This document shows positions 626 to 59,500 of a stretch of DNA of 64,000 nt, in pieces. Source of the DNA: Crambe crambe (taxonomy: Eukaryota; Porifera; Demospongiae; Poecilosclerida; Crambeidae); contig OZ004587.1 of assembly GCA_963924555.1 (NCBI GenBank), positions 4,712,001-4,776,000 of the forward strand, read 5' to 3'. A program made the translations under genes and the position numbers. The notes beneath the pieces were generated by a model that ran no database searches, was not told the origin of the DNA, and was given only the letters and a program-made list of their open reading frames with translations. Numbering within the stretch: position 1 is the stretch's first letter; each line of letters opens with the position of its first letter.

Positions 626-1797
626 CTTTTGGAATATCTCCTTCCATAAATTTTGGGCCTGCCATGGTAGATGGAGGTGAGGTGGAGTCCATTGGATGTG
701 ATGGAGGATTCACAAGACAACCTGCAACACAGAATAGCACGTATTAATTTTTAACTCTCCTCTTCAATAATTACCTTTGAGAGAGATGTTGTGAGTGTTG
801 CTAGTGGCAGTGATGGTGTCCTTGAGGAAAGGGGAGGTGAGGTTGATTTGGCAAGTGTATTGACCAGCATGGGACAGAGAGAGAGAAGGGAAAGAGAGAG
901 TGTTGTCTAAAGACTCAACCAGCACTACTCCATTGTGACTCCAGCAGTATGTGATGGTAGGACTGAAATCTTCAGCACCTGATACAGTGCAGGAAAGGCA
1001 GTACTTCTCCTCCACTGAGGGGTTGCCCCCAGAAATCACCACTTTGATTGGAGGGGCTATAAATGAAGGAGAGAGAGTCTGGTCATAGCGTTAATCGACA
1101 TTGTTTTGTGTTAATGGGACTACATGACATTAATGTGGCCAGAACTACAAGACAAAGTTATGGTAGCATTCTACAAGAAATCATTGCAGCTAGTTAGTAA
1201 ATGGACATTCTAGGGTCAGATAGAAAAACCATTATGTTAGCTACATCAGATATCAGTACTGTAGATTATTCAACTTACCATCAAGGAAGACTTTTTCCTC
1301 CTTTACTATTTTTTCAGCTAAGCTCTTAAATCCTACGGTAGGCTTGATCAGAGCGGACACAACAGCTTTCCATGAGATCTCACCACCACATCCATTCAAC
1401 CACTCCACCAACATGAAAGTGAAGCACTTATCCTGGTCGTCGCGATAGTTGACCCCCAACACTTGCAGGATGTCAATTGGGAGATGTAACTGGAGTCCAA
1501 AGGTGAACCACTTGGTCCTCGCTTCCCACAGACAATTTTGAATGTCGGCAAAATTGGACGAAATCAATTCAACTATGAATCATAATTAAAATACTGAAAT
1601 TGTATTGTTTCTACTGATATTGCATGCAAAGCATAGCCATAACTACTTGACTGACTTCCTGGACCAGGGTTGGTCTCGATGTCCCCAGCACAGTGTAGTA
1701 GACAGCATATAATGGTGATAGAGAAGGCCACAAACAAGTACACACCAAGTCCTTTCAATATCTTCTGTTTACTACAACTTCCAGGGGCTTGGGTCAT
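626..1797 (-). CDS. NLR1, 5' part only: 2A signal exon, Death domain, Ig and linker exons
   Basis: Four exons of an NLR receptor are visible: 1647-1797 (hydrophobic signal plus 2A motif), 1279-1572 (Death domain), 775-1056 (Ig domain) and 626-721 (Pro/Ser linker). All junctions are phase 1 with GT-AG borders, as in the four complete paralogues. Translation is taken to start at the ATG at 1795-1797; release at the 2A site would give a 45-residue leader. The Death domain has the family's Trp and Leu pattern (LWEARTKW, EWLNGCGG, VGFKSLAEKI). The Ig domain has its Cys pair (LSCTVSG, YTCQINL) and core Trp. The large NACHT-LRR exon is not found. Intron sequence at about 297-430 aligns with the NLR4 intron at 42905-43035, which lies only about 140 bp from its NACHT exon, yet 1-296 has no NACHT coding. 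The gene is therefore either interrupted by an insertion or truncated. It could be a pseudogene. Confidence 0.75.
1660..1686 (-). other. 2A ribosome-skipping motif of NLR1 (GDIETNPGP)
   Basis: The complement encodes G-D-I-E-T-N-P-G-P, a full match to the 2A consensus D-[VI]-E-x-N-P-G-P. It follows directly after a hydrophobic stretch (residues about 17-37 of the leader). In known 2A peptides the Gly-Pro bond is not formed, so the leader is released and translation resumes at Pro. Confidence 0.85.
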
Positions 1798-1899
1798 ACA
1801 GGAAGTGTCTGTTAAGGGAAAAGGAAGATTCAGATCAGAGGTGTGTGAATTTGGTAAAGGGTTCACAACATGGTAAAGGGTCATAATAAGTACTACTAT

Positions 1900-2519: not shown

Positions 2520-2649
2520 CTATTAGCGAGAGTAGGAACTCTTCCAGGATTTTGTTGGGAGAAATAGAGTGGCATTTCATTGAAGCACGAGAATGGGCAG
2601 CATTGTTCAGGCCCACACTGGCCCTCCACTGCTCCATACTGACTGGCAT
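2520..2649 (-). pseudogene. Solitary FIH-like first exon (unit 1)
   Basis: The exon begins ATG (MPVSMEQWRASVGLNNAA) and ends at a GTCAGT donor in phase 1 (LLSLIG). Its end, C-H-S-[IV]-S-P-N-K-I-L-E-E, resembles the start of the FIH-like locus found elsewhere in the array (SCSVPLNHSDILEEFLL near 35340-35440). No matching second exon follows before the NLR gene. I therefore read it as a stranded duplicate of a FIH-type first exon. It could instead be the last exon of the aminotransferase gene or a small unknown gene. Confidence 0.4.
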
Positions 2650-8208: not shown

Positions 8209-11200
8209 TCACCACCACTCCACTCTAGGGTATGCTGGTTGCTTGTATCTCTTTGATAAACAAAGTTCTGTTAAACTTGTGTTCTGCTGTAGACTTGATA
8301 GGATTACATCAACTCCTTCTTCAAATGAATCATCTCTATGTAGATATAGTTCCTTTAGTGAAATGTTTTTCTCTAGCATCTCACTCATTGCCTTAGCTCC
8401 TTCCACTTCAATCGCATTGCCTTGCATCTCTAATACTAACAAGGTGGAGTTTTCAGATAGTGCTGCAGCGATGTGAATGCATCCTTGTGATGTTATTTCA
8501 CAGTAAGCTATACCAAGGTGTTTTAACACTGCATTAGTTTTAATCACATCACCAATGGAAGCTGCTCCAATATCTCCTATTGGGTTCCCCCATAGTTCTA
8601 ATTTGGTGAGTGACTTATTGACGGCAAGACCTGCTGACAACTGCACAGCTCCCTCACTGGTAATTTCACAGTCATCTATATCAAGGTGTTCTAACACTGC
8701 ATTAGTTTTAATCGCATCACCAATGGAAGCTGCTCCAATATCTCCTATTGGGTTCTCCTTTAGTTGTAAAAGGGTGAGTGATTTATTGATGGCAAGAACT
8801 GCTGACAACTGCACAGCTCCCTCACTGGTGATACAACAAGATCTCAATCGTAAAATCCTTAAGCTCATCATTGCACATGTGAGTTCGAACATAAGAGTTG
8901 AGGAAATTACATCAAGTTTGTTGTAGCTAAAATACAATTCAATAAACTGCTGGAGTATAGGATGAGGGATGTTTACAAAATGTTCAATGCTATGAATATC
9001 ACATTCATCAAAGTAAGCACTTGTTATTTCTCCTTTCCAAGTTACTGCTCTCATCTTCATCAACCCTTTGGAAAACATTTCTATTCCCTCATTTCCCATA
9101 TATGAAAAACTAAAGTCCAATCTCCACTTGCTTTGAGAATATGCCATAGAATGGCCCACCACGAAGTAATCAAGAGGACTCCATTCATGAGATGAGAACA
9201 CTTCTATTGACTCACAAGATGCCAGCAGATTAGAAACTGCCTCAGTATCACCAGCTTCATACATCCAGTGATAGGCAGCTGCACTTTCATCATCTGAGAT
9301 ATGCTTTTGAATCATTTCTGAAGTGAAGGCATTAAACTTGGAGAGACCAAAATAGAATTTCATCACCACACTCAGGTGACCTACTTTGACATGTTCTCTT
9401 ATTAGCTGCTGTTGTGTGTGGAGAGGCAACTGTGTGATGTGGTAGGCAGCTAGAAACTCTTGAAGTGTCAGATGGATGAAGTGGTAGGAGAGCTCGGCAT
9501 CCTGTCCACGATAGAGCTCTTTCACTGATTCCATCAATCCTAGAGTCACTCCACCTACATCAGCACTGCTGAATGTCAGCTGTTGCTTCATGATTCCTTC
9601 CCAAGCCAGTTTGCTTAGGGCCAGCAGCTGTTGATGCACATCTGGAGGGAGGTCCTCAAGAGATCCAATCTTCCAGGACTGTTTGCCGTGTGCCTTATGT
9701 CCTGAAAAGTGCTGCATCAGCAGTTTACATATATACACTGTGTAGAGTCGGGTAACGGTGGTTGGGGGGGTTGACTCCATGTCTCGGCTCCACTTGAATA
9801 CATCTGTCACTATGTTGGCAGTCACAGGAGTGTGCATGGCTGCCTTCATTGCTGGGTAATAGTTCACATAGTCCAAAAATTTTCTACGGATGTCGGAATG
9901 AACCCTCTCTTCCCTCAATACTCGACTTAACTCTAAAGTAGGAGTTGTGACGAGTTCAATATGTTGGTCCACTCGGATTGAAGTGCTCTTGACAATTGGC
10001 TTTGTGGCCCATGGTCGGCTGGTTATGATTATGGTAGCTTTGGGTAGCTTGCGACCATGTACTAAATCAAGAAATATTGAAGATTCTTCCCTCATTTTTT
10101 GTTCCAGTTCGTCCCAGGCTTCCAGCCACAGGACTACACCCTCTCCTTGGCTGCTCTCCACTTCCTGTGCTATGGCCCCCTGGAGCTGAGGGTGGTGGAA
10201 GAGGTCAGAGATACTTTTGGCTGATCTTACTCTGTTGTCTCGTAGGGGAAGGAGGACCAGTAGGTTGTGGTCATTTAGACGTTGGCCCTGAGACCACTTG
10301 AAACAGAATTGTTCACTGAATGTGGTCTTGCCCACACCTGGAGCTCCTTCAATCAGAACTAGTCGTGGCTTCTTCCATTTAGTTTCATGTGTGGCCTGAG
10401 CAACTTCATCTTCTGTCATAGGGTATTTCTTGTAGATGACATCATCTTTGTCTCCCCTGATCGTACTCTTAGTGAAGCTGTCTATTTTACTCCGATCAAT
10501 CTCCTCCTTCTCTATCCATGCCAATTTGAAAGCAGCGAGGTTCTTGCCCTCCATGGTGGAATAGGTGTCCTTCAGGAAGGCTGCATACTTTGGAATACTC
10601 GAATATTTGTATTCTTTACCATCGATGGTCATGCATTCGATTTTGTGTTCCTTGAAGAATCCTTTATTGTCAGTGTTCTCCAGGTCCTGCACTAAAGTGG
10701 AGGCGATCTGAGCAGGCAGCAACCATGTGACTATCAAACTGCCATGTGATACTTTCTTCAAGATGAGGGCGAAGGAGGGGAGGAGGAACTTGCGGATGAT
10801 GTGACCTTTCAACTCTTCTAGTTGCTCCAAAGTGCATGTCTCCCAGTCTAATTTCAGGTGGAGTACAAATTCCTTCAGATCCACTTCGCTAGGTCTGCTT
10901 TCAACTACTGGACAATGCTTGGCAAAGTCACACAATCGAGTGTTACGTCGAAAAGATTCCAGTGAACTCAGATAACTCTTCATATTCTGCTTGAGTGAAT
11001 GGTCTCCAATGTTACGAATTAAATTTTCCAATAGTGTATAATTCATAAAGTTCCAGTACTCACTAAGTTTTCGCCAAATGCAGTTAATGGTGGACTCACC
11101 ATCCAATTCTTTTGCCATTTGTTCAAAAAATTCCTTATGTTCTTCTTTGTACTTGATCGGCAATGTCATGAGGCGAGCTTTGAATCGATTGACAGTATAA

Positions 11201-13376
11201 TCTTTTTCAATTTTATCATACGTCCGAATTGATATGTCATTAAATTCATCTTCAAGGTCTTGTGTTTGCTGTGAAATTGTTTTTTGAAGGAGACCTGCAA
11301 TATACAAAATAACAGGTATTCAACTCAGAGATATATGTAGTGATTATTGTTATGATAATTTATTGTTCTGCACATAAGGAAATTCTATTACTCTATTATT
11401 ATGACATGGTTTCAGATTTTTCTCAAGTCTCCTGGTAATGTTGTAATTTTCTAGTCTGGTCGATTGTATATACCTTAAGGTGGGTATTATTGGCGACTTT
11501 AGCGAGTAGGCCTTTATTTGCTAATAATTATAAGCACACACTAATAATAAAATTACGTATAATTAGAAGTAATATTGAACAAAACAGTGTCAAACTAGGC
11601 TAGCTGTGTGAACGTGAGTGTCCTGGCGGAGTTAGCTAGCTAGCTAGATTGCTGTTGTCTTCATCAGAGTCTGTTTGAGATACTTCATCATCATCTAATT
11701 TCATGGACTCAAGAATGGCAGTAGTAGGGGTGGAAAAAGGCAGGAGTGACAGGTGTGATAGATGGAAGTATCACTATTCCCAATGAAGATCCTTTTTGTT
11801 CAATCTACAAAATATAACTCTCCAATGATAGTTACTGACACAATAATGCATTGTATTGTTTGTGTCTGATATTCTTGAAGCAACTTCATATGAACTTACA
11901 TTAAAAATAGCTATTACACAAAGCTCAAAATAGCTAAAATTAATACCCGCCAAATACGACGTGCAAGAAATCAACCACGCGTGTCTGTCCCATCCGGTGC
12001 CGCCCCCAGCTATGTTTCTGGAAGATCGAAAAAAGAAGCCGATACTTTGAATGCAAAAGACTTGTCTTCTGGATCCCCAAGGCCCCCCCTTTCAAGGATT
12101 GTACCTTCTTCACTGGTGTAGAAAGTTGCTATGGAAGATTGTCCAGGCAGAAGGCATAATAAGTACGCTAAATATAAATATGATCCACATACTGGCTTCT
12201 ACCATGAATGAGCACAATTAACTTCTACTTCTAGGACAGGCACCTGCAACTCTTGCAGATGATTCATTTATGCATAGTGCATGGCTGGCTACAGCTAGCT
12301 GTATGCACCGACCATCCACGAAATTTAACCACGAACAATTTCATTCCCCCCATAACACAAAATTTTTACCCCTTGAAAATAACCCGATTTTATATAATCA
12401 AGAAAGTTTGAGCACACCTTTTGGAACTTCTCCTTCCATGGTAGATGGAGGTGAGGTGGAGTCCATTGGATGTGATGGAGGAGTCATAGGACAACCTGCA
12501 ACAACAGAATAACTGATTAGAAATTTACTCTCCTCTTCAATAATTACCTTTGAGAGAGATGTTGTGAGTGTTGCTAGTGGCAGTGATGGTGTCCTTGAGG
12601 AAAGGGGAGGTGAGGTTGATTTGGCAAGTGTATTGACCAGCATGGGACAGAGAGAGAGAAGGGAAAGAGAGAGTATTGTCTAAAGACTCAACCAGCACTA
12701 CTCCATTGTGACTCCAGCAGTATGTGATGGTAGGACTGAAATCTTCAGCACCTGATACAGTGCAGGAAAGGCAGTATTTCTCCTCCACTGAGGGGTTGCC
12801 CCCAGTAATCACCACTTCGATTGGAGGGGCTATATAATATAATATTATGACACATCATTGAACTGTTTATTACTAACAGTACCTGCTAGATATATTTGGT
12901 GTTCTCTGGCTATCTTCATGGCCAGATTCTTGTGTCCCACACAGGGCTTCTTCAGAGCTTCCAATAAATTCTCCCATGAAGGTAAAGGGTCAATCATTTT
13001 TAGCCACTCGGAAAGCATCTCTCTGAAGCAAGCCTTCACGTCAGTGGGGTTCTCTTTTTTGATAGTCTGCAGTGTTGATTCACTGAGGTTTAATTCCAGT
13101 CCTAGGTCATACCACTCAGTCTTGGCATCCCAAATAACATTGCGCACTTTTGACAGGTTTGCTGGAACCATCTCAACTATAAGCAGTAAATATTAATTTC
13201 AACATCAAAGCACAGCTATAACTACTTGACTGACTTCCTGGACCAGGGTTGGTCTCGACGTCCCCAGCACAGTGTAGTAGACAGCATATAATGGTGAGAG
13301 AGAAGGCCACAAACAAGTACACACCAAGTCCTTTCAATATCCTCTGTTTACTGCAACCTCCAGGGGCTTGAGTCAT
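8209..13376 (-). CDS. NLR2: 2A-Death-Ig-NACHT-LRR receptor, complete
   Basis: This is a complete NLR innate-immune receptor of 1296 aa in five exons: 13226-13376, 12883-13176, 12548-12829, 12418-12495 and 8209-11294. All introns are phase 1. In order it has a hydrophobic leader with 2A motif GDVETNPGP (residues 38-46), Death domain (about 51-148), Ig domain (149-242), Pro/Ser linker, an N-terminal region with YWNFMNYTLLENLI, and NACHT with Walker A GAPGVGKTT (about 585-593), Walker B VVLWLEAWDE (about 655-664) and sensor ATIIITSRPW. HLTLQEFLAAYH lies in the helical region after it, then RI-type LRRs with two copies of a 56-residue module. NACHT proteins oligomerise on nucleotide binding and Death domains recruit signalling partners. 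The Death domain is unlike that of the sister genes (VPANLSKVRN, LSEWLKMID), and the following intron is only 53 bp against about 205 bp in NLR1, NLR3, NLR4 and NLR5. Confidence 0.9.
11295..12417 (-). other. NLR2 intron 4
   Basis: A 1.1-kb intron between the linker exon and the NACHT-LRR exon. It has the acceptor TATTGCAG|GTCTCC and the donor AAAAG|GTGTGC. It holds AT-rich sequence with TAGCTAGCTAG runs. The first 150 bp are shared with the NLR1 and NLR4 introns. There is no coding signal. Confidence 0.6.
13239..13265 (-). other. 2A ribosome-skipping motif of NLR2 (GDVETNPGP)
   Basis: A full D-V-E-x-N-P-G-P match in the first coding exon, immediately after the hydrophobic leader. The strong donor CAA|GTAGTT lies 12 bp after the final Pro codon. 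Confidence 0.88.
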
Positions 13377-13746
13377 ACAGGAAGTGTCTGTTAAGGGAAA
13401 AGGATTAGATTTGGTAAAGGGTTTTCAACATGGTAAAGGGTGGTCATAATACTACTATGCATATGGTAGTATACAGTGAACTCCCTCTAATCAGGACCCC
13501 TGAAATGAGGCCACCCTTCTTATTAGGACACTTCTGCTGGCTCAAAGGTGGCCGGATTAGAGGGATTCAATTGTATCACATTCAGGAATTATACTGTCTT
13601 TCAGGAAACTCTTTCAATGCAATGACATGTTGGTGCTTCTTGGTCATTCAACTCATCTAAATAACATTTTTTAAAGTGATTTCTCAAAAATATTTTCTAC
13701 CATTACGATTGAGATCGTAGTATAATGTGAAGGATGAAGCTTATAC

Positions 13747-14948: not shown

Positions 14949-15078
14949 CTATTAGCGAGAGTAGCAACTCTTCCAGGATTTTATTGGGAGAAATAGAGTG
15001 GCATTTCATTGAAGCACGAGAACGGGCAGCATTGTTCAGGCCCACACTGGCCCTCCACTGCTCCATACTGACTGGCAT
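14949..15078 (-). pseudogene. Solitary FIH-like first exon (unit 2)
   Basis: Copy of the 2520-2649 exon (MPVSMEQWRASVGLNNAARS to LLLSLIG, phase-1 GTCAGT donor). Sequence just before the ATG differs in length between units (16, 17 or 24 bp after the acceptor-like ACACAG). Only the ATG-started frame is therefore shared. Confidence 0.4.
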
Positions 15079-22557: not shown

Positions 22558-25500
22558 TTATAAATCACGCCACTTCACTCTAAAATCTGCTGGTCGCTCG
22601 TATCTGTCTGATAGCACGAGTTCTGTTAAACTTGTGTTCTGCTCTAGACTTGATAGGATTACATCAACTCCTTCTTCATATGAATGATCTTCATGTAGAT
22701 GTAGTTTTTTTAGTGAAATGTTTTTCTCTAGCATCTCACTCATCGCCTTAGCTCCTTCCACTCCAATAGCATTGCCTTTCATCCGTAATATTAACAAGGT
22801 GGAGTTTTCAGATAGTGCTGCAGCGATGTGAATGCATCCTTGTGATGTTATTTCACAGTAATCTATATCAAGGTGTTCTAACACTGCATTAGTTTTAATC
22901 GCATCACCAATGGAAGCTGCTCCAATATCTCCTATTGGGTTCCGCCATAGTTTTAATTTGGTGAGTGACTTATTGACGGCAAGACCTGCTGACAACTGCA
23001 CAGCTCCCTCACTGGTAATTTCACAGCCACTTATTTTAAGGTATTCTAACACTGCATTACTTTTAATTGCATCACCAATGGAAGCTGCTCCAATATCTCC
23101 TATTGGGTTCCCAAATAGTCCTAATCTGGTGAGTGATTTATTGACGGCAAGACCTGCTGACAACTGCACAGCTCCTTCACTGGTGATACCACAAGAATAC
23201 AATATTAAAGTCCTTAAGCTCGTCAGTGCATGAGATAAAAGAGTTGAGGAAATTACATCAAGTTTGTTGTTTGAAAAATCCAATTTGATAAACTGCTGGA
23301 GTATAGGATGAGGGATGTTTAGATAATGTTCAATGCTATGAATGTCACAGGCCTTAAAGTTAGCTCTTGTTATTTCTCCGTTCCAAGTTACTGCTCTCGT
23401 CTTCATCAACCCTTTGGAAAACATTTCTATTCCCTCATTTCCCATATATGAATAAGAAAAGTCCAATACCCACTTGCTTTGAGAATGCGCTATCGAATAG
23501 CCCACCACGAAGTAATCAAGAGGACTCCATTCATGAGACGATGACACTTTTATTGACTCACGAGATGCCAGCAGATTAGAAACTGCCTCAGTATCACCAG
23601 ATTCATACATCCAGTGATAGGCAGCTGCACTTCCATAATCTGAGATATGCTCTCGAATCATTTCTGAAGTGAAGGCATTAAACTTGGAGAGACCGAAATA
23701 GAATTTCATCACCACACTCAGGTGACCTACTTTGACATGTTCTCTTATTAGCTGCTGTTGTGTGTGGAGAGGCAACTGTGTGATGTGGTAGGCAGCTAGA
23801 AACTCTTGAAGCGTCAGATGGATGAAGTGGTAGGAGAGCTCGGCATCCTGTCCACGATAGAGCTCTTTCACCGATTCCATCAATCCTAGAGTCACACCAC
23901 CGATATCAGCACTGCTGAATGTCAGCTGTTGCTTCATGATTCCTTCCCAAGCCAGTTTGCTTATGGCCAGCAGCTGTTGATGCACATCTGGAGGGAGGTC
24001 CTCAAGAGATCCAATCTTCCAGGACTGTTTGCCGTGTGCCTTATGTCCTGAAAAGTGCTGCATCAGCAGTTTACATATATACACTGTGTAGAGTCCGGAA
24101 ACGGTGGTTGGGGGGGTTGACTCCATATCTCGGCTCCACTTGAATACATCTGTCACTATGTTGGCAGTCACAGGAGTGTGCATGGCTGCCTTCATTGCTG
24201 GATAATAGCTCACATAGTCCAAAAATTTGCTACGGATGTTGGAATGAACTCTTTCTTCTCTCAATACTCGACTTAACTCTAAAGTAGGAGTCGTGACAAG
24301 TTCGATATGCTGGTCCACTTGGATTGATCTGCTCTCAACGATTGGCTTTGTTGCCCATGGTCGGCTGGTTATGATTATGGTAGCTTTGGGTAGCTTGCGA
24401 CCATGTACTAAATCAAGAAATATTGAAGATTCTTCTCTCATTCTTTGTTCCTGTTCGTCCCAGGCTTCCAGCCACAGGACCACACCCTCTCCTTGGCTGC
24501 TCTCCACTTCCTGTGCTATGGCCCCCTGGAGCTGAGGGTGGTGAAAGAGGTCAGAGATACTTTTGGCTGACCTCACTCTGTTGTCTCGTAGGGGAAGGAG
24601 GACCAGTAGATTGTGGTCATTTAGACATTGGCCCTGAGACCACTTGAAACAGAATTGTTCACTGAATGTGGTCTTGCCCACACCTGGAGCTCCTTCTATC
24701 AGAACTAGTCGTGGTTTCCATTTAGCAACTTCATCTTCTGTCATAGGGTATTTCTTGTAGATGACATCATCTTTGTCTCCCCTGATCGTACTCTTAGTGA
24801 AGCTGTCCATTTTTCTCCGATCAATCTTTTCCTTCCATATCCTTGCCAGTTTGAAAGCAGTGAGGTTCTTGCCCTCCATGGTGGAATAGGTGTCCTTCAG
24901 GAAGGCTGCATACTTTGGAATACTCGAATATTTGTATTCTTTACCATCGATGGTCATGCATTCGATTTTGTGTTCCTTGAAGAATCCTTTATTGTCAGTG
25001 TTCTCCAGGTCCTGCACTAAAGTGGAGGCGATCTGAGCAGGCAGCAACCATGTGACTATCAAACTGCCATGTGATACTTTCTTCAAGATGAGGGCAAAGG
25101 AGGGGAGGAGGAACTTACGGATGATGTGACCTTTCAACTCTTCTAGTTGCTCCAAAGTGCATGTCTCCCAGTCCAATTTTAGGTGGAGTACAAATTCCTT
25201 CAGATCCGCTTCGCTAGGTCTGCTTTCAACTGCTGGACAATGTTCTGCAAAGTCACAAAGTCGAGTGTTACGTCGAAAAGTTTCCAGTGAACTAAGATAA
25301 CTCTTCATATTCTGTTTGAGAGAACGGTCTCCAATGTTACGAATAAGGTTTTCTAAGAGTGTGTAATTCATAAAGTTCCAGTATTTACTCAGCTTGATCC
25401 AAATACTATTGATGGTCGACTCTTTTTCTAGTTCATTCTCAATTTGTTGGAAGAAGTCTTCGTGTTCTTCTTTGCACTTGATCGGCAATGTAATGAGGCG

Positions 25501-27274
25501 AGCTTTGAATTGATTGACAGTATAATCTTTTTCAATTTTATCATATGTCCGAATTGATATGTCATTGAATTCATCTTCAAGGTCTTGTGTTTGCTGTGGA
25601 ATGATTTTTTGAAGGAGACCTGCAATATACAAAATAACAGGTATTAAAAGTCTATCATTATTATTGTTATAATTGTTCTGATAAGGAAACTCTCCACATT
25701 AATAATGAAAAGGATCATGTGTATGAAAAAATAATAAACGCAAAAAGACTTGTCTTCATGATCCCCAAGGCCCCCTTCAAGGATTGTACCTTCTTCGCTG
25801 GTGAAGAACGTTGCTGTGGAAAATTATCCATCAGGCATAAGGCATAAATAATACACTAAGTAACTGGCTTTTATCGGGAATGAGCTAGTCATAGTTCTAC
25901 TTCTAGCATACGTAGGCACCTGCCACTCTTGCAGCTCATATATGCTTAGTGCATGCATGGCCAGCTACAACTAGCTCTACACACAGACCATCCACGACCA
26001 CGAATAGTTACACTTGCCCCAAAACACGAAATTTTTACCCCTCGAAAATAACCCGCTATACGGTAATCTATAGCCTTCCATGTATATTCCATACAAGCAA
26101 GAAAGATTGAACATACCTTTTGGAACTTCTCCTTCCATAGGACCTTCCATGGTAGATGGAGGTGAGGTGGAGTCCATTGGATGTGATGGAGGAGTCACAG
26201 GACAACCTACAACACAGAATAACTGATTAGAATTTTTAATTTTTTACTCTCCTCTTCAATAATTACCTTTGAGAGAGATGTTGTGAGTGTTGCTAGTGGC
26301 AGTGATGGTGTCCTTGAGGAAAGGGGAGGTGAGGTTGATTTGGCAAGTGTATTGACCAGCATGGGACAGAGAGAGAGAAGGGAAAGAGAGAGTGTTGTCT
26401 AAAGACTCAACCAGCACTACTCCATTGTGACTCCAGCAGTATGTGATGATAGGACTGAAATCTTCAGCACCTGATACAGTGCAGGAAAGGCAGTACTTCT
26501 CCTCCACTGAGGGGTTGCCCCCAGAAATCACCACTTTGATTGGAGGGGCTATAAATGAAGGAGAGAGAGTCTGGTCATAGCATTAATCGACATTGTTTTG
26601 TGTTAATGGGACTACATGACATTAATGTGGCCAGAACTACAAGACAAAGTTATGGTAGCATTCTACAAATCACTGCAGCAGGTCACAGACATTTTAGGGT
26701 ACCATTATGTTAGCTATATCAGATATCAGTACTGTAGATTATACTAACTTACCATCAAGGAAGACTTTTTCATCCATTACTATTTTCTCAGCTAAGCTCT
26801 TAAATCCCACGGTAGGCTTGATCAGAGCGGACACAACAGCTTTCCACGAGATCTCACCCCCACGTCCATTCAACCACTCCACCAACATGAAAGTGAAGCA
26901 CTTATCCTGGTCATCACGATTGTTGGCCCCCAATACTTGCAGGATGTCAATTGGGAGACGTAGCTGGAGTCCAAAGGTGAACCACTTTGTCCTCGCTTCC
27001 CACAGACGATTTTGAATGTCAGCAAAATTGGACGAAATCAATTCAACTATGAATCATAATTAAAATACTACTGATATTGCATTGATTCTACTGATATAGC
27101 ATGCAAAGCATAGTCATAACTATTTGACTGACTTCCTGGACCAGGGTTGGTCTCGATGTCCCCAGCACAGTGTAGTAGACAGCATATAATGGTGATAGAG
27201 AAGGCCACAAACAAGTACACACCAAGTCCTTTCAATATCCTCTGTTTACTGCAACTTCCAGGGGTTTGGGTCAT
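22558..27274 (-). CDS. NLR3: 2A-Death-Ig-NACHT-LRR receptor, complete
   Basis: This receptor has 1289 aa if exon 1 ends at 27133: 27133-27274, 26753-27046, 26267-26548, 26117-26206 and 22558-25619. The domain order is as in NLR2. The 2A motif is GDIETNPGP. The Death domain is of the common type (FADIQNRLWEARTKW). The Ig domain has ITYCWSHNG and YTCQINL, and the NACHT has GAPGVGKTT and WLEAWDEQEQ. Two 56-residue LRR modules are present. The donor used by NLR1, NLR2 and NLR4 (CAA|GTAGTT) is mutated to ATAGTT here. The nearest replacement, GAA|GTCAGT, lies 9 bp upstream, keeps phase 1, and places the junction one residue after the 2A Pro. If this weaker donor fails, exon 1 reads on to a stop and yields only the short leader. 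The 5' half is nearly identical to NLR5. Confidence 0.88.
27137..27163 (-). other. 2A ribosome-skipping motif of NLR3 (GDIETNPGP)
   Basis: A full 2A consensus after the hydrophobic leader. The inferred splice donor is only 4 bases past the last codon of the motif. Confidence 0.87.
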
Positions 27275-27684
27275 ACAGGAAGTGTCTGTTAAGGGTAAAG
27301 AAAGACTCTGGATGTGTCAATTGGTAAAGGGTTTTCAACATGGTAAAGGGTGGTCATAAGTACTACTATATAGTACATATATACAGTGAACTCCCTCTAA
27401 TCAGGACCCCTAAAATGAGGCAACCCTGGTATTTAAAAAAGTCCTTCATAATATAAATTCACCCCTGAAATGAGGCCACCCCTCTAATCAGGACACTCCT
27501 AAGGTGGCCGAGTCCATTGTATCTCATTTACGAATGTCAATCAATTTCAGGAAACTCTTTCACTGTAAAAAGCTTGCAATAATTATGTTGGAGTCTCTTG
27601 GTCCTTTTACTCGTCTAAAGAACACTCTTTTAAAATGATTAATTTTCTACAATTACGATTGAGATTATAGTATGAAGTTTATAC

Positions 27685-28567: not shown

Positions 28568-28697
28568 CTATTAGTGAGAGTAGGAACTCTTCCAGGATTT
28601 TATTGGGAGAAACAGAGTGGCATTTCACTGAAGCACGAGAACGGGCAGCATTGTTCAGGCCCACACTGGCCCTCCACTGCTCCATAGCGACTGGCAT
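28568..28697 (-). pseudogene. Solitary FIH-like first exon (unit 3)
   Basis: In this copy the frame is open back to an acceptor-like ACACAG (VVLPDTVTMPVAMEQWRASV). It may therefore be an internal exon, not a first exon. It ends with the same phase-1 GTCAGT donor. The copy at 60384-60513 is the same. No partner exon is identified. Confidence 0.4.
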
Positions 28698-39781: not shown

Positions 39782-42700
39782 CTAACACTTCACTCTAGAG
39801 AATGCTGGTAGCTTGTGCCGGTATTTGCTTGATATGTAAAGTACTTTTAAACTTTTGTTCTTCCGTAGACTTGATAGGATTACATCAACTCCTTCTTCAT
39901 ATGAATCATCTCCTATTAGATCTAGTTCTTTTAGTGAAGTGTTTTTCTCTAGCATCTCGCTCATCGCCTTAGCTCCTTCCACTCCAATAGCATTGCCATC
40001 CATCTTCATTATTAACAAGGTGGAGTTTTCAGATAGTGCTGCACAGATGTGAATGCATCCTTGTGATGTTATTTCACAGTCACTTATATTAAGTTCTAAC
40101 ACTGCATTAGTTTTAATTGCATCAACAATGGAAGCTGCTCCAATATCTCCTATTGGGTTCTCAGATATTTTTAATTTGGTGAGTGACTTATTGATGGCAA
40201 GACCTGCTGACAACTGTACAGCTCCCTCACTGGTGATACTACAAGATACCAATACTAAAATCCTTAAGCTCGTCAGTGCACGTATGAGGAGTTCAGACAA
40301 AAGAGTTGAGGAAATTACGTCAAGTTTGTTGAAACTAAAATCCAATTTGATAAACTGCTGGAGTATAGGATGAGGGATGTTTACGAAATGTTCAAGGCTA
40401 TGAATGTCACAGTAAACAAAGTAAGCTTTTGTTATTGCCCCTTTCCAAGTTACTGCTCTCATATTCATCAACCCTTTGGAAAACATTTCTATTCCCTCAT
40501 TTCCCATATATGAATGAAAAAAGTTTAGTATCCACTTGCTTCGAGAATATGCAATGGAATAGCCTACCATGTAGTAATCAAGAGAACTCCATTCATGAGA
40601 TGAAATCACTTCTATTACCTTACCAGATGCCAGCAGATCAGAAACTTTCTCAGTAGCACCAGCTTTAAACAGCTTACGAAATGCCAGCTTATGAGATACC
40701 AGCAGATCAGAAATTGCTGCCTCAGTAGCACCAGCTTCACATATCCAGTGATAGGCAGATGCACTCTCATGATCTAAGATATGGTCTTGAATCATTTCTG
40801 AAGTGAAGGCATTAAACTTGGAGAGACCAAAATAGAATTTTATCACCACACTCAGGTGACCTACTTTGACATGTTCTCTTATTAGCTGCTGTTGTGTGTG
40901 GAGAGGCAACTGTGTGATGTGGTAGGCAGCTAGAAACTCTTGAAGCGTCAGATGGATGAAGTGGTAGGAGAGCTCGGCATCCTGTCCACGATAGAGCTCT
41001 TTCACTGATTCCATCAATCCTAGAGTCACTCCACCGATATCAGCACTGCTGAATGTCAGCTGTTGCTTCATGATTCCTTCCCAAGCCAGTTTGCTCAGGG
41101 CCAGCAGCTGTTGATGCACATCTGGAGGGAGGTCCTCAAGAGATTCAATCTTCCAGGACTGTTTGCCGTGTGCCTTATGACCTGAAAAGTGCTGCATCAG
41201 CAGTTTGCATGTATAAGCTGTGTAGAGTCGGGTAACGGTGGTTGGGGGTGTTGACTCCATGTCTCGGCTCCACTTGAATACATCTGTCACTATGTTGGCA
41301 GTCACAGGAGTGTGCATGGCTGCCTTCATTGCTGGATAATAGTTCACATAGTCCAAAAATTTGCTACGGATGTCGGGATGAACCCTCTCTTCCCTCAATA
41401 CTCGACTTAACTCTAAAGTAGGAGTTGTGACGAGTTCGATATGCTGGTCCACTTGTATTGAAGTGCTCTCGAAAATTGGCTTTGTGGCCCATGGTCGGCT
41501 GGTTATGATTATGGTAGCTTTGGGTAGCTTGCGACCATGTACTAAATCAAGAAATATCGAAGATTCTTCCCTCATTCTTTGTTCCAGTTCGTCCCAGGCT
41601 TCCAGCCACAGGACCACACCCTCTCCTTGACTGCTCTCCACTTCCTGTGCTATGACACCCTGGAGCTGAGGATAGTGGAAGAGGTCAGAGATACTTTTGG
41701 CTGACCTCGCTCTGTTGTCTCGTAGGGGAAGAAGGACCAGTAGGGTGTGGTCAGTTAGACGTTGGGCCTGAGACCACTTGAAACAGAATTGTTCACTGAA
41801 TGTGGTCTTGCCCACACCTGGAGCTCCTTCGATCAGAACTAGTCGTGGTTTCTTCCGTTTAGTGGTCTGAGCAATTGCATCTTCTTTCATAGGGTATTTC
41901 TTGTAGATGACATCATCTTTGTCTCCCCTGATCGTACTCTTAGTGAAGCTGTCCATTTTACTCCGATCAATCTCCTCCTTCTCTATCCCTGCCAGTTTAA
42001 AAGCAGCGAGGTTCTTACCTTCCATGGTGGAATAGGTGTCCTTCAGGAAGGCTGCATACTTTGGAATACTCGAATATTTGTATTCTTTACCATCAATGGT
42101 CATGCATTCGATTTTGTGTTCCTTGAAGAATCCTTTATTGTCAGTGTTCTCCAGGTCCTGCACTAAAGTGGAGGCGATCTGAGCAGGCAGCAACCATGTT
42201 ACTATCAAACTTCCATGTGATACTTTCTTCAAGATGAGAGCAAAGGAGGGGAGGAGGAACTTGCGGATGATGTGACCTTTCAACTCTTCTAGTTGCTCCA
42301 AAGTGCATGTCTCCCAGTCCAATTTTAGGTGGAGTACAAATTCCTTCAGATCCGCTTCGCTGGGTCTGCTTTCAACTGCTGGACAATGCTTGGCAAAGTC
42401 ACACAATCGAGTGTTACGTCGAAAAGTTTCCAGTGAACTAAGATAACTCTTCATATTCTGTTTGAGAGAACGGTCTCCAATGTTACGAATAAGGTTTTCT
42501 AAAAGTGTGTAATTCATAAAGTTCCAATATTTACTCAGCTTCATCCAAATACTATTGATGGTCGACTCTTTTTCTAGTTCATTCTCAATTTGTTTGAAGA
42601 AATCCTTGTGTTCTTCTTTGTATTTAATTGGTAAACTCATGAGGCGAGCTTTGAATCGATCGACATCAATATCCTTTTCTTTAATTTTGTCATATGTTTG

Positions 42701-45222
42701 AATTGTAATGTCGATAAATTCATCTTCAAGGTCTTGTGTTTGCTGTGGAATGGTTTTTTGAAGGAGACCTGCAATATACAAAATAACAGGTATTAGAAGT
42801 CTATACAAACTCTGAGATATATGTAGTGATTATTGTTATGATATTGCTCTGATAAAGAAACTCTTCACATTAAAAATGAAAAGGATGTGTATGAAAAAAT
42901 AATAATGGCTGAAAATTGTTATGCATTTTCTGGTGATAGCATATCTAAATATCTAATCTTCCTTCTGCTCAACTCAATATCTATAGATGTCATTACATAA
43001 CTTTTTGGCTCACTCTATTACTCTATTATTATGACATGGTTTCAGATTTTCTCTATTTGTAATTAGAAGCAAGGGAGACATGCAATAACAAGCAAGTCTC
43101 CTGGTAATGTTGTAATTTTCTAATCTGGCTATATATTGTATACCAGGTTTTTTTCAAGGGGTATTATTTTCGAGGGTGAAAGAACCACACATTTTTACCA
43201 ATGATACCTGATATACCACACGTGTATACCACACGTGCAAGAAATCAACTACATGCATCCCATCTGGTGCCATCCCCATGGCTGGTGCCATCCCCATGGC
43301 TGGTGCCATCCCCATGGCTAGCTAGCTATAAGATCATTGTAATAGACAAAAAAGCCTTTATTCCAATATTTTAAACGCAAAAAGACTTATATTCTGGATT
43401 CCTATATAAGGCCCCATTTCAAGGTTTGTACCTTCTTCGCTGGTAAAGAAAGTTGCTGTGGAAAATTGTTTGTCAGGCAGAAGACATAAATCATACACTA
43501 AGTATGATACACGTACTGGCTTCTTGGACAAATTGGGACCAGGGGTTTTATTCTTTATAGAGAGGTTGTCCTCTTTAAGAGGTTATGATCAGAATGCAAT
43601 ATTTTATACACAAAATCATAATATTATTGCAGGGTATTGTGATTATCAGAAGTCAATAACAAGACTTTATAACTTAAGAACTACTGTCATGATCAACAGA
43701 GGGGCTGGCTATGGACTAGAAATACCTTGTGAATGTAGACCCAAGGCGTACTGTGACAAACTTAAGCAACTTTTAACAAATGCAGGTTTCATTTTAATTG
43801 GAATGCATTGCAGTTTTGTCCGCTATTCGGAGATAAGAGGTGTCTACTTTAGGAGGTAAGTTTATACTAGCAGTTTCATAGAGAGCATTCGGTGCCACTT
43901 AGTTTGTCCGCTCTAGGGAGATTGTCCGCTCTTGGGGGAGTCCGTTAAGAGTATATTCTATACAAGCAAGAAAGATTGAACACACCTTTTGGAACTTCTC
44001 CTTCCAAAGGACCTTCCATGGTAGATGGAAGTGAGGTGGAGTCCATTGGATGTGATGGAGGAGTCACAGGACAACCTGTAACAACAGAATAACTGATTAA
44101 AAATACTATTACGTATTGCTCTCCTCTCTCGTATTAATGATTAGAAAATTTTTACTCTCCTCTTCAATAATTACCTTTGAGAGAGATGTTGTGACTGTTG
44201 CTAGTGGCAGTGATGGTGTCCTTGAGGAAAGGGGAGGTGAGGTTGATTTGGCAAGTGTATTGACCAGCATGGGACAGAGAGAGAGAAGGGAAAGAGAGAG
44301 TGTTGTCTAAAGACTCAACCAGCACTACTCCATTGTGACTCCAGCAGTATGTGATGGTAGGACTGAAATCTTCAGCACCTGATACAGTGCAGGAAAGGCA
44401 GTACTTCTCCTCCACTGAGGGGTTGCCCCCGGTAATCACCACTTCAATTGGAGGGGCTATAAATGAAGGAGAGAGAGTCTGGTCAATATTTTATAGCCTC
44501 AAATTGACATTGTCTAATGTGCCTTGATGTTAAGGGGCTACATGGCATTAATGTGGCCAGAACTACATACAAGACAAAAGTTATGTAGCATTCTAATAGC
44601 AGCTGGTTAGGCAACTGGGTCATAGACATTCTTGGGTCAAATAGAAAAACCATTATGTTAGCTACATCAGATATCAGTACAGTAGATTATACTAACTTAC
44701 CATCAAGGAAGACTTTTTCCTCCATTACTATTTTCTCAGCTAAGCTCTTAAATCCAACAGTAGGCTTGATCAGAGCGGACACAACAGCTTTCCATGAGAT
44801 CTCACCCCCACATCCATTCAACCACTCCACCAACATATCAGTGAAGCACGTATTAGGGTCGCTAATATATTTAGATCTTAATACTTGCAGGATGCCAACT
44901 GGGAGATGTAGCTGGAGTCCAAAGGAGAACCACTTGGTCCTCACTTCCCATAGACAATTTTGAATGTCGGCAAAATTGGACGAAATCAATTCAACTATGA
45001 ATCATAATTAAAATACTACTGAAATTGCATTGTTTCTACTGATATTGCATGCAAAGCATAGCCATAACTACTTGACTGACTTCCTGGACCAGGGTTGGTC
45101 TCGACGTCTCCAGCACAGTGTAGTAGACAGCATATAATGGTGATAGAGAAGGCCACAAACAAGTACACACCAAGTCCTTTCAATATCCTCTGTTTACTGC
45201 AACCTCCAGGGGTTTGGGTCAT
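39782..45222 (-). CDS. NLR4: 2A-Death-Ig-NACHT-LRR receptor, shortest LRR array
   Basis: This receptor has 1267 aa from exons 45072-45222, 44701-44994, 44175-44456, 43986-44075 and 39782-42768, all joined in phase 1. The 2A motif is GDVETNPGP. The Death domain is a variant of the common type (LRSKYISDPNTCFTDML). The Ig domain has a Ser in place of Thr near its end (SNSHNIS). Walker A is GAPGVGKTT and Walker B is VVLWLEAWDE. Only one 56-residue LRR module is present. After the NACHT, a local tandem duplication gives two similar helices (AGATEAAISDLLVSHK and AGATEKVSDLLASGK) where the sister genes have one. Sequence upstream of about 45310 does not match the other units, so its promoter region may differ. 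Confidence 0.89.
42769..43985 (-). other. NLR4 intron 4
   Basis: A 1.2-kb intron. It contains three 18-bp tandem copies of GGTGCCATCCCCATGGCT (43266-43319). Short GAGAGGTTGTCCTCTTTAAG-type repeats (about 43558-43577) are also seen in the 3' flanks. The open frame at 43458-43859 on the plus strand has no recognisable domain and lies inside the intron. Confidence 0.55.
45085..45111 (-). other. 2A ribosome-skipping motif of NLR4 (GDVETNPGP)
   Basis: A full 2A consensus directly after the hydrophobic leader, in an exon ending at the strong CAA|GTAGTT donor. Confidence 0.88.
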
Positions 45223-45309
45223 ACAGGAAGTGTCTATTAATGGAAAAGGAAGACTTAGAGGTGTGTCTATTTGGTAAAGGGTTTTCAATATGGTAAAGGG
45301 TGGTCATAA

Positions 45310-46521: not shown

Positions 46522-46663
46522 CTATTTGTGAGAGTAGGAACTCATCCAGGATTTCTTCCAGGATTTTATTGGGAGAAATGAAGAGGGATTTCATCGAAGC
46601 ACGAGAATGGGCAGCATTGTTCAGGCCCACACTGGCCCTCCACTGCTCCATACTGACTGGCAT
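46522..46663 (-). pseudogene. Solitary FIH-like first exon (unit 4)
   Basis: Same exon as at 2520-2649, with an in-frame 12-bp duplication (CCAGGATTTCTT) that gives ILEEILDEFLL. It still ends with the phase-1 GTCAGT donor. Confidence 0.4.
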
Positions 46664-54207: not shown

Positions 54208-57200
54208 TTAAAACCATAACACTCTAGGGTCTGCTGGACGCCTGTGTGAGTATGATAGACTAAGTTGTCTTAGACTTGTGTTCTGCTGTAGACTTGATAG
54301 AATTACATCAACTCCTTCTTCATATGAATAATCTGTATGTAGATGTAGTTCTTTAAGTGAAATGTTTTTCTCTAGCATCTCACTCATCGCCTTAGCTCCT
54401 TCCACTCCAATAGCATTGCCTTGCATGTCTAATCTTAATAAGGTGGAGTTTTCAGATAGTGCTGCAGCGATGTGAATGCATCCTTGTGATGTTATTTCAC
54501 AGTAAGCTATAACAAGGCATTCTAACACTGCATTAGTTTTAATCGCATCACCAATGGAAGCTGCTCCAATATCTCCTATTGGGTTCGCAGATAGTTCCAA
54601 TCTGGTGAGTGACTTATTGACGGCAAGACCTGCTGATAACTGCACAGCTCCCTCACTGGAAATATCACAGAAACTTATACACAGGTAATTTAAAACAGCA
54701 TTAGTTTTAATCGCATCAACAATGGAAGCTGCTCCAATATCTCCTATAGGGTTCTCATTTAGTTCTAATCTGGTCAGTGACTTATTGACGGCAAGACCTG
54801 CTGACAACTGCACAGCTCCCTCACTGGTAATTTCACAGTCACCTATTTCAAGGTGTTCTAATACTGCATTAGTTTTAATCGCATCACCAATGCAAGCTGC
54901 TCCAATATCTCCTATTGGGTTCCCAAATAGTTCTAATGTGGTGAGTGATTTATTGACGGCAAGACCTGCTGACAACTGCACAGCTCCTTCACTGGTGATA
55001 CCACAAGAATTCAATGTTAAAGTCCTTAAGCTCGTCAGTGCATGAGATAAAAGAGTTGAGGAAATTACATCAAGTTTGTTGTTGCGTAAATCCATTTCAA
55101 TAAACTTCTGGAGTATAGGATGAGGGATGTTTAGAAAATGTTCAATGCTATGAATGTCACAGCCCGCAAAGTTAGCTGTTATTTCTTGTTTCCAAGTTAC
55201 TGCTCTCATCTTCATCAACCCTTTGGAAAACATTTCTATTCCCTCATTTCCCATATATGAATTACAAAAGTCCAATTCCCACTCGCTTTGAGAATATGCC
55301 ATAGCCATAGAATGGCCCACCACGAAGTAATCAAGAGGACTCCATTCATGAGATGAGAACACTTTCATTGACTCACGAGATGCCAGCAGATTAGAAACTG
55401 CCTCAGTATCACCAGCTTCATACATCCAGTGATAGGCAGCTGCACTTCCATAGATATGCAATCGAATCATTTCTGAAGTGAAGGTATTAAACTTGGAGAG
55501 ACCGAAATAGAATTTCATCACCACACTCAGGTGACCTACTTCGACATGTTCTCTTATTAGCTGCTGTTGTGTGTGGAGAGGCAACTGTGTGATGTGGTAG
55601 GCAGCTAGAAACTCTTGAAGCGTCAGATGGATGAAGTGGTAGGAGAGCTTGGCATCCTGTCCACGATAGAGCTCTTTCACTGATTCCATCAGTCTTAGAG
55701 TCACACCACCGATATCAGCACTGCTGAATGTCAGCTGTTGCTTCATGATTCCTTCCCAAGCAAGTTTGCTTAGGGCCAGCAGCTGTTGATGCACATCTGG
55801 AGGGAGGTCCTCAAGAGATCCAATCTTCCAGGACTGTTTGCCGTGTGCCTTATGACCTGAAAAGTGCTGCATCAGCAGTTTACATGTATACGCTGTGTAG
55901 AGTCGGGTAACAGTGGTTGGGGGGTTTGACTCCATATCTCGGCTCCACTTGAATACATCTGTCACTATGTTGGCAGTCACAGGAGTGTGCATGGCTGCCT
56001 TCATAGCTGGATAATAGTTCACATAGTCCAAAAATTTGCTACGGATGTTGGGATGAACCCTCTCTTCCCTCAATACTCGACCTAACTCTAAAGTAGGAGT
56101 TGTGACAAGTTCGATATGTTGGTCTACTCGGATTGAAGTGCTCTTGACAATTGGCTTTGTGGCCCATGGTCGGCTGGTTATGATTATGGTAGCTTTGGGT
56201 AGTTTGCGACCATGTACTAAATCAAGAAATATTGAAGATTCTTCCCTCATTCTTTGTTCCAGTTCGTCCCAGGCTTCCAGCCACAGGACCACACCCTCTC
56301 CTTGGCTGCTCTCCACTTCCTGTGCTATGGCCCCCTGGAGCTGAGGGTGGTGGAAGAGGTCAGAGATACTTTTGGCTGAACTCACTCTGTTGTCTCGTAG
56401 GGGAAGGAGGACCAGTAGGTTCTGGTTATTTAGACATTGGCCCTGAGACCACTTGAAACAGAATTGTTCACTGAATGTGGTCTTGCCCACACCTGGTGCT
56501 CCTTCGATCAGAACTAGTTGTGGTTTCTTCCATTTAGTTTGTCCTGTGACCTGAGCAATTATATCTTCTGTCATAGGGTATTTCTTGTAGATGACATCAT
56601 CTTTGTCTCCCCTGATCGTACTCTTAGTGAAGCTGTCCATTTTTCTCCGATCAATCTCCTCCTTCTCTATACCTGCCAGTTTGAAAGCAGAGAGGTTCTT
56701 GCCCTCCATGGTGGAATAGGTGTCCTTCAGGAAGGCTGCATACTTTGGAATACTCGAATATTTGTATTCTTTACCATCGATGGTCATGCATTCGATTTTG
56801 TGTTCCTTGAAGAATCCTTTATTGTCAGTGTTCTCCAGGTCCTGCACTAAAGTGGAGGTGATCTGAGCAGGCAGCAACCATGTGACTATCAAACTGCCAT
56901 GTGATACTTTCTTCAAGATGAGGGCAAAGGAGGGGAGGAGGAACTTGCGGATGATGTGACCTTTCAACTCTTCTAGTTGCTCCAAAGTGCATGTCTCCCA
57001 GTCTAATTTTAGGTGGAGTACAAATTCCTTCAGATCTGCTTCGCTAGGTCTACTTTCAACTGCTGGACAATGCTCGGCAAAGTCACATAGTCGAGTATTA
57101 CGTCGAAAAGTTTCCAGTGAACTAAGATAACTCTTCATATTCTGTTTGAGAGAACGGTCTCCAATGTTACGAATAAGGTTTTCTAAGAGTGTGTAATTCA

Positions 57201-59090
57201 TAAAGTTCCAGTATTTACTCAGCTTGATCCAAATACTATTGATGGTCGACTCTTTTTCTAGTTCATTCTCAATTTGTTGGAAGAAATCTTTGTGTTCTTC
57301 TTTGTACTTGATCGGTAATGTCATGAGGCGAGCTTTGAATCGATTGACATCGATATCCTTCTCTATAATTTTATCATACGTTTGAATCGATACATCCATA
57401 AATTCATCTTCAAGGTCTTGTGTTTGCTGTGGAATGGTGTTTTGAAGGAGACCTGCAATATACAAAATAACAGGTATTAAAAGTCTATCATTATTATTGT
57501 TATATTGTTCTGATAAGGAAACTTTCCACATTAAAAATGAAAAGGATCATGTGTATGAAAAAAATAATAAACGCAAAAAGATTTGTCCCCCTTCAAGGAT
57601 TGTACCTTCTTCGCTGGTGAAGAACGTTGCTGTGGAAAATTATCCATCAGGCATAAGGCATAAATAATACACTAAGTAACTGGCTTTTATCGGGAATGAG
57701 CTAGTCATAGTTCTACTTCTAGCATACGTAGGCACCTGCCACTCTTGCAGCTCATATATGTTTAGTGCATGCATGGCCAGCTACAACTAGCTCTACACAC
57801 AGACCATCCATGACAACGAATAGTTCCATTTGCCACAAAACACGAAATTTTTACCCCTCGAAAATAACCCGCTATACGGTAATCTATAGCCTTCCATGTA
57901 TATTCCATACAAGCAAGAAAGATTGAACACACCTTTTGGAACTTCTCCTTCCATAGGACCTTCCATGGTAGATGGAGGTGAGGTGGAGTCCATTGGATGT
58001 GATGGAGGAGTCACAGGACAACCTACAACACAGAATAACTGATTAGAATTTTTAATTTTTTTACTCTCCTCTTCAATAATTTAACCTTTGAGAGAGATGT
58101 TGTGAGTGTTGCTAGTGGCAGTGATGGTGTCCTTGAGGAAAGGGGAGGTGAGGTTGATTTGGCAAGTGTATTGACCAGCATGGGACAGAGAGAGAGAACG
58201 GAAAGAGAGAGTGTTGTCTAAAGACTCAACCAGCACTACTTCATTGTGACTCCAGCAGTATGTGATGGTAGGACTGAAATCTTCAGCACCTGATACAGTG
58301 CAGGAAAGGCAGTACTTCTCCTCCACTGAGGGGTTGCCCCCAGAAATCACCACTTTGATTGGAGGGGCTATAAATGAAGGAGAGAGAGTCTGGTCATAGC
58401 GTTAATCGACATTGTTTTGTGTTAATGGGACTACATGACATTAATGTGGCCAGAACTACAAGACAAAGTTATGGTAGCATTCTACAAATCACTGCAGCAG
58501 GTCACAGACATTTTAGGGTACCATTATGTTAGCTACATCAGATATCAGTACTGTAGATTATACTAACTTACCATCAAGGAAGACGTTTTCATCCATTACT
58601 ATTTTCTCAGCTAAGCTCTTAAATCCCACGGTAGGCTTGATCAGAGCGGACACAACAGCTTTCCACGAGATCTCACCCCCACATCCATTCAACCACTCCA
58701 CCAACATGAAAGTGAAGCACTTATCCTGGTCATCACGATTGTTGGCCCCCAATACTTGCAGGATGTCAATTGGGAGACGTAGCTGGAGTCCAAAGGTGAA
58801 CCACTTGGTCCTCGCTTCCCACAGACGATTTTGAATGTCAGCAAAATTGGACGAAATCAATTCAACTATGAATCATAATTAAAATACTGAAATTGCATTG
58901 TTTCTACTGATATTGCATGCAAAGCATAGTCATAACTATTTGACTGACTTCCTGGACCAGGGTTGGTCTCGATGTCCCCAGCACAGTGTAGTAGACAGCA
59001 TATAATGGTGATAGAGAAGGCCACAAACAAGTACACACCAAGTCCTTTCAATATCCTCTGTTTACTGCAACTTCCAGGGGTTTGGGTCAT
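54208..59090 (-). CDS. NLR5: 2A-Death-Ig-NACHT-LRR receptor, longest LRR array
   Basis: This receptor has 1350 aa from exons 58949-59090, 58572-58865, 58086-58367, 57933-58022 and 54208-57452, all phase 1. The 2A motif is GDIETNPGP. As in NLR3, the usual exon-1 donor is mutated and GAA|GTCAGT is inferred. The Ig exon ends at a weak donor, AAAG|GTTAAA, where the sisters have GTAATT, so skipping or misuse of this exon is possible. The Death and Ig domains are almost the same as in NLR3. The NACHT exon has GAPGVGKTT, WLEAWDELEQ and HLTLQEFLAAYH, then three 56-residue LRR modules. The 5' exons and upstream sequence match the NLR3 block almost exactly, but the NACHT-LRR exon differs from NLR3 more widely. 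Confidence 0.88.
58953..58979 (-). other. 2A ribosome-skipping motif of NLR5 (GDIETNPGP)
   Basis: A full 2A consensus following the hydrophobic leader, with the same arrangement as NLR3. Confidence 0.87.
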
Positions 59091-59500
59091 ACAGGAAGTG
59101 TCTGTTAAGGGTAAAGAAAGACTCTGGATGTGTCAATTGGTAAAGGGTTTTCAACATGGTAAAGGGTGGTCATAAGTACTACTATATAGTACATATATAC
59201 AGTGAACTCCCTCTAATCAGGACCCCTAAAATGAGGCAACCCTGGTATTTAAAAAAGTCCTTCATAATATAAATTCACCCCTGAAATGAGGCCACCCCTC
59301 TAATCAGGACACTCCTAAGGTGGCCGAGTCCATTGTATCTCATTTACGAATGTCAATCAATTTCAGGAAACTCTTTCACTGTAAAAAGCTTGCAATAATT
59401 ATGTTGGAGTCTCTTGGTCCTTTTACTCGTCTAAAGAACACTCTTTTAAAATGATTAATTTTCTACAATTACGATTGAGATTATAGTATGAAGTTTATAC

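Follow-up and report, generated by a model that had tools for sequence, protein, structure and literature searches.

A putative StopGo (2A) module of two exons precedes the Death-Ig-NACHT-LRR receptor in NLR genes of a demosponge genome

The window analysed here, a 64-kb stretch of genomic DNA, holds five loci, all on the minus strand, and at each of them a leader is followed by G-D-[IV]-E-T-N-P-G-P. Upstream of each motif the protein reads MTQ...KGLGVYLFVAFS[IL]TIICCLLHCA, 37 residues counted from the Met of that exon. A preliminary description had placed a perfect 2A motif after about 37 residues with a hydrophobic core at five NLR loci. Its five coordinates were correct, with the shared minus strand left out; the 37 residues hold when counted from the in-exon Met, NACHT and LRR_6 were found in all four complete copies, and the motif is a canonical StopGo core in an L-rich ...LLHCAG context, where LLHCAG before the D matches, by eye, the L-rich (A/S/C)G class. 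The features of the five copies are collected in Table 1. Copies 3 and 5 arose from a single recent duplication (window 27000-32179 versus 58819-64000, 5.2 kb at 99.8% identity, covering the leader, exon 1 and upstream DNA), so the five loci are not five independent cases.

Table 1. Modelled exons and core motifs in the window (a slash marks the exon boundary)
Copy	Feature	Position	Strand	Content
1-5	core motifs	1660-1686, 13239-13265, 27137-27163, 45085-45111, 58953-58979	minus	
1	exon 1	2520..2649	minus	conserved exon 1
1	exon 2	1656..1808	minus	leader + GDIETNPGP
1	exon 3	1279..1572	minus	Death-like (position and pattern); rest, including NACHT-LRR, off window
2	exon 1	14949..15078	minus	start codon + MPVSMEQWRASVGLNNAARSRASMKCHSISPNKILEELLLSLI, donor AATAG/GTCAGT, phase 1; 43 codons, conserved; exon-1 core pN/pS 0.20
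2	exon 2	13235..13387	minus	hydrophobic leader + GDVETNPGP + G; acceptor CCCTTAACAG/AC, donor GGAA/GTCAGT, phase 1-1
2	exon 3	12883..13176	minus	Death domain, PF00531 E 4.7e-6
2	exon 4	12548..12829	minus	immunoglobulin domain, PF13895 E 7.2e-7, two N-glycosylation sequons
2	exon 5	8209..11294	minus	NACHT + leucine-rich repeats, PF05729 and PF13516
3	exon 1	28568..28697	minus	conserved exon 1
3	exon 2	27133..27285	minus	leader + GDIETNPGP
3	exon 3	26753..27046	minus	Death-like; no Pfam match at E 0.01
3	exon 4	26267..26548	minus	Ig, PF13895 E 2.2e-6
3	exon 5	22558..25619	minus	NACHT-LRR
4	exon 1	46522..46663	minus	12-nt in-frame insertion
4	exon 2	45081..45233	minus	leader + GDVETNPGP
4	exon 3	44701..44994	minus	Death-like (position and pattern)
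4	exon 4	44175..44456	minus	Ig, PF13895 E 7.3e-7
4	exon 5	39782..42768	minus	NACHT-LRR
5	exon 1	60384..60513	minus	conserved exon 1
5	exon 2	58949..59101	minus	leader + GDIETNPGP
5	exon 3	58572..58865	minus	Death-like (position and pattern)
5	exon 4	58086..58367	minus	Ig, PF13895 E 4.4e-6; weak donor GTTAAA
5	exon 5	54208..57452	minus	NACHT-LRR

We spliced the four complete copies with phase-1 introns, modelled from splice consensus and frame only. All four gave open proteins of 1314, 1306, 1285 and 1367 aa that are free of internal stops, and in each of these models the StopGo core, (D/G/C/N)(V/I)ExNPGP, is in frame with the receptor. The domain order is exon 1, leader-2A, Death or Death-like, Ig, NACHT-LRR. 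NACHT (PF05729) and LRR (PF13516) scored over the Pfam cut-off in all four, while copy 1 runs off the window. The Ig domain is present in the four copies, and L017 on C6, a divergent relative, has one too; in the four it occupies a symmetric phase-1 exon between the Death-type exon and NACHT, with two sequons (NLT and NIS). Copy 2 has a Death match (PF00531) over the cut-off. The second exon type was scanned in copy 3 and had no Pfam match at E 0.01; its label 'Death-like' refers to position and pattern. These two dissimilar Death-type exons stand behind near-identical leaders (W13265, L045, L055 and L076 versus the other rows), an arrangement that suggests exon swapping or gene conversion in the arrays. 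The first Met after NPGP lies 4 residues downstream in copy 2. In the other three copies it lies 55 residues downstream, inside the Death-like exon, which means that this exon needs an upstream start.

The preliminary description had the receptors start with the leader. Our gene model says otherwise: the leader is internal exon 2 of the gene, and a conserved coding exon 1 precedes it. Exon 1, which encodes MPVSMEQWRASVGLNN..., was found on the same strand and within 6 kb upstream of 28 of the 31 leader matches, those at E 5.7e-5 or better among the 105 from the leader protein search; it was downstream of the leader in 0 of the 31. Some of the 28 paired leader copies are broken (L083 and L087, for example), and 4 of the 32 exon-1 matches are left without a leader partner. 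The distance between exon 1 and leader is 0.3-4.1 kb across all pairs. In the five window copies, exon 1 encodes MPVSMEQWRASVGLNNAARSRAS..., lies 0.7-1.6 kb upstream of the leader and ends at a phase-1 donor. Of the 15 window-type copies, 14 have an exon 1 that measures 121, 130, 136 or 142 nt up to the matching donor, each length being 1 mod 3. In the fifteenth (L075) the matching AATAG/GT is present, but the donor pattern marked only a GTAAGT before it, which gives 106 nt and again 1 mod 3. An extra downstream donor site in another phase, flagged in 5 of the 15 exon-1 rows, was left unused. Exon 1 was also found in the three remoter copies (C1 and C3), with no convincing donor. In-frame stops occur inside the 20 residues printed upstream of the exon-1 ATG in 10 of 18 copies.

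The borders of the leader exon agree with this model. By eye, the 20 leader exons in the alignment, 5 of them from the window and 15 fetched, all open at an AG acceptor. Read in the same way, 11, 14 or 17 nt lie between the acceptor and the leader Met position, a length of 2 mod 3 in each case, and NPGP-G is followed by the donor GT[CG]AGT in every exon. We rejected an alternative donor, CAGTCAA/GTAGTT, because its GT is lost in several copies (at least W27163, W58979, L050 and L052), whereas GT[CG]AGT is kept throughout. For the main form of the gene, exon 1 upstream, the acceptor and the splicing phases also led us to reject the leader as first exon. A shorter form might still be made beside the exon-1 form, or replace it, if transcription or initiation took place at the exon-2 Met, which would turn the leader into a classical N-terminal signal-2A sequence as in the preliminary description. 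That Met is present in 17 of the 20 leader exons, and two intact leaders have no exon 1 within 6 kb (C10:4893273 and C10:6636307). However, this Met is replaced by TTG, ACA and ACG in three exons (L045, L051 and L053), the divergent leaders L072-L075 have no Met at that position and only an inner one (RIM), the acceptor is conserved, and exon 1 has a conserved start codon. We consider such a short form unlikely.

Genome-wide (143 Mb), the strict StopGo/2A core had 97 matches and a looser core, [DNGS][VIM]ExNPGP, had 214; a third pattern, for sites whose variable position is L, V or F, marked 79. The reversed patterns, strict and looser, had 0 matches in the whole genome, which rules out chance matches.

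NPGP is kept in all 25 best matches of the leader protein search, one of which (L055) has a stop in the leader. Of the next three matches, L083 and L087 are broken and without NPGP, and the third, on C6, has a stop inside according to its table row. Synonymous change exceeds amino-acid change in both exons of the module: pooled pairwise counts among related copies, taken without a phylogenetic model, gave pS 0.275 and pN 0.055 (ratio 0.20) for the exon-1 core (20 codons, 19 rows including the broken copy L083) and pN/pS 0.41 for the leader (50 codons, 20 rows). In the single comparison of copy 2 with L072, leader pS was 0.47 and pN 0.18. The pooled ratios draw on young, related copies and so lack independence; as counts on aligned sequences they suggest purifying selection on exon 1 and the leader. 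The view that retention of the leader in every copy speaks for function gains some support, and the dN/dS-type check proposed with it came out, on these pairwise counts, as more synonymous than amino-acid change in the leader exon.

These data also bear on whether the motif is a functionless relic that recent tandem duplication has multiplied or a retroelement has brought in. Some copies are indeed very recent, as the 5.2-kb duplication illustrates, and passages of the sea-urchin study of Roulston et al. 2016 (PMC4981915) mention 2A-like sequences in non-LTR retrotransposons. Nevertheless, we regard a relic as very improbable, given the excess of synonymous change and a core that is kept in the 25 best leader matches and gone from two broken ones. 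The core also ends many dissimilar leaders, but this counts for little because those leaders were chosen by the core itself. As to a retroelement carrier, among the fetched loci of one other leader type only L019 has, by eye, reverse-transcriptase-like frames, and we rejected this candidate, reading the frames, which lie about 4-7 kb downstream of the StopGo leader, as a likely inserted element. In a scan of viral_contigs, a pattern picked out three stretches, and no relative of the 154-aa leader-Death query was encoded in them, a result that speaks weakly against a viral origin of the leader.

We analysed the hydrophobicity of the leader. In the spliced proteins its helix occupies residues 63-81 (67-85 in copy 4) and is the most hydrophobic stretch of each protein, with KD19 of 2.38-2.42 versus 1.39-1.94 for the next. 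The simulated retention of hydrophobicity was not clearly above chance (fractions 0.05-0.65 for five leaders). Among 44 distinct leader rows, a sample of the 214 sites in which near-identical rows of one family were counted apart, so that this family is over-represented, KD19 reached at least 1.9 within the 37 residues that precede the core in 19 and stayed below this value in 25. L001, one of the 19, has its hydrophobic stretch end 17 residues short of the core. With more than half of these rows lacking a membrane-grade helix, StopGo appears as the common element and the helix as a feature of some families, which makes secretion unlikely as the shared purpose of the device. The N-terminal signal sequence of the preliminary description is also weakened: a coding exon 1 precedes the leader, and with a helix that begins only at residue 63 or 67, a signal anchor or a tail anchor is likelier than an N-terminal signal peptide that is cleaved off.

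These features have to be weighed against dual targeting as proposed for sea urchin, where the 2A leader is primarily a signal sequence and partial skipping sends one receptor to two destinations, cytosol and secretory pathway; on this view the sequon-bearing Ig domain would be of use to the exported form. In passages of the sea-urchin paper (PMC4981915), SpNLR2A6 reporters skipped at about 80% in vitro and a skip-dead mutant was secretory in HeLa cells; on the sponge side, the membrane-grade helix and the sequon-bearing Ig exon of all four copies would suit such export. The same passages, however, place the wild type in the HeLa cytoplasm, with only a faint extracellular signal in plants. Further points against it are the distance of the helix from the N-terminus, the 25 leader rows without a 19-residue window of KD 1.9 or above and, by our reasoning, Death and NACHT domains with no known use in the lumen. 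Dual targeting is possible, if somewhat unlikely, and we do not favour it as the general explanation; a reading in which the gene makes two proteins fits as well.

Many dissimilar StopGo leaders occur elsewhere in the genome (L009-L028 and L059-L071, on C1, C3, C5, C6, C8, C9, C10 and C11). Ten downstream frames from L009-L028 were scanned: six had Death matches at E <= 0.05 (two over the Pfam cut-off) and four had none. At L022 an ankyrin-repeat frame lies about 2.6 kb downstream of the leader. One large family, on C1, C5, C8, C10 and C11, has sequences such as RRRRVLQTVHYSDHQVVTSLLLILA before the core, and its leader exon is bounded as an internal phase-1 exon in 11 of 12 loci, L014 being without a pattern match. 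Within this family, the leader exons of L010, L015, L016, L018-L021 and L025-L028 have a second hydrophobic stretch, for example LYLNFLLTILWWKLAV, and a Cys-rich segment, for example CTMCTNH, before the StopGo core.

The genome also contains clusters of multi-exon Peptidase_C1 genes at C9:8.66-8.68 Mb and C15:0.86-0.89 Mb. Two of the three Peptidase_C1 exons fetched (L057 and L058, on C15) encode CGSSYAF and CGASYAF, which we take to be the silicatein signature (cathepsin L fold, Ser at the catalytic Cys), and on the strength of these silicatein-type exons the genome is treated as that of a demosponge. The C9 exon (L056) had no match to the silicatein pattern.

The principle of an NLR preceded by a hydrophobic 2A sequence is already known from sea urchin. 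Passages of Roulston et al. 2016 (PMC4981915) describe a 26-residue N-terminal 2A in 14 of 87 NCBI sea-urchin NLR entries; the fate of the released leader lay outside that study. To judge from them, SpNLR2A and the sponge genes have in common the NLR family and a hydrophobic N-terminal sequence ending in a StopGo core. Unlike SpNLR2A, the sponge genes have a two-exon leader of 92-96 residues with a conserved extra exon that supplies its head peptide; the helix begins at residue 63 or 67, and the receptor carries an Ig domain. The two cases also differ in phylum and in how many sites there are.

In the parts of Li et al. 2026 (PMC12846837) available to us, motifs 2 and 6 share with the sponge cores, by eye, D[VI]ExNPGP with its D at p12, a G at p11 and a hexamer that is rich in L and ends in (A/S/C)G. 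Activity in reticulocyte lysate is reported there for motifs 1, 3, 4 and 6 (the L-rich one), in each case for one representative. That survey covered viruses and, in those parts, calls StopGo use in cellular genes rare, whereas here a cellular receptor module accompanies 214 core sites in one genome.

For sponges, the passages seen of a paper on Dysidea avara NLRs (PMC12909245) describe, as here, Death-NACHT-LRR architectures in a large repertoire, with transmembrane segments in some, and propose membrane-bound NLRs. Those passages hold no Ig-containing NLR, unlike the Ig-bearing NLRs of the window, and '2A-like', 'NPGP' and 'skipping' are absent from the main text. The 'membrane-bound NLRs' of Dysidea might be NLRs with StopGo leaders. 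In the open-access literature we found no paper linking a 2A-like sequence with Amphimedon, or StopGo with porifera; among the literature matches listed, '2A-like' occurred only in the sea-urchin paper and in one picornavirus paper. Cellular proteomes have reportedly been searched for 2A by Rao et al. 2025 (Cell Rep 44:115822), who may already list sponge cases.

Taken together, the genes probably encode a Death-Ig-NACHT-LRR receptor preceded by a two-exon StopGo (2A) module that is released as a separate protein. Ribosome skipping at these cores is likely from their sequence. Ribosomes would start at exon 1 (MPVSMEQWR...) and then translate the membrane-grade helix; at ...CAGD[VI]ETNPG/P the Gly-Pro bond would mostly not be made. 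Skipping would free a peptide of 92-96 aa with the hydrophobic helix at its very C-terminus, and the receptor would then follow as a cytosolic protein of its own that lacks the leader and begins with P-G-I-E. In this scheme we infer the efficiency of skipping, the start codon used, the localisation and the released peptide as a product of its own.

When the ribosome decides at Gly-Pro, about 10-30 residues separate a helix so placed from the peptidyl-transfer centre, which leaves the helix within the exit tunnel. A helix still in the tunnel at the skip gives the released peptide a C-terminal helix, that is, a tail-anchored layout. Without the skip, the helix would emerge from the ribosome and could act as a signal anchor, so that a receptor made by non-skipping ribosomes would keep it as an internal signal anchor. 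Since the residues just before the helix are basic and those after it acidic, this unskipped receptor would be expected on the lumenal or outer side.

More tentatively, sponge NLR genes may be two-protein genes, in which a tail-anchored microprotein with a conserved MEQWRASVG head is made 1:1 with a cytosolic receptor. By the same tentative reading, membrane-bound sponge NLRs may be split from their membrane segment, and the layout may be reused with many leaders across the receptor arrays. This one early-branching animal genome holds 214 core sites, with in-frame NLR splicing modelled for the window type. If the cores are active, gene predictions would err in calling such NLRs transmembrane, every receptor mRNA would give a second peptide in stoichiometric amount, and StopGo would be in large-scale use in animal innate immunity.
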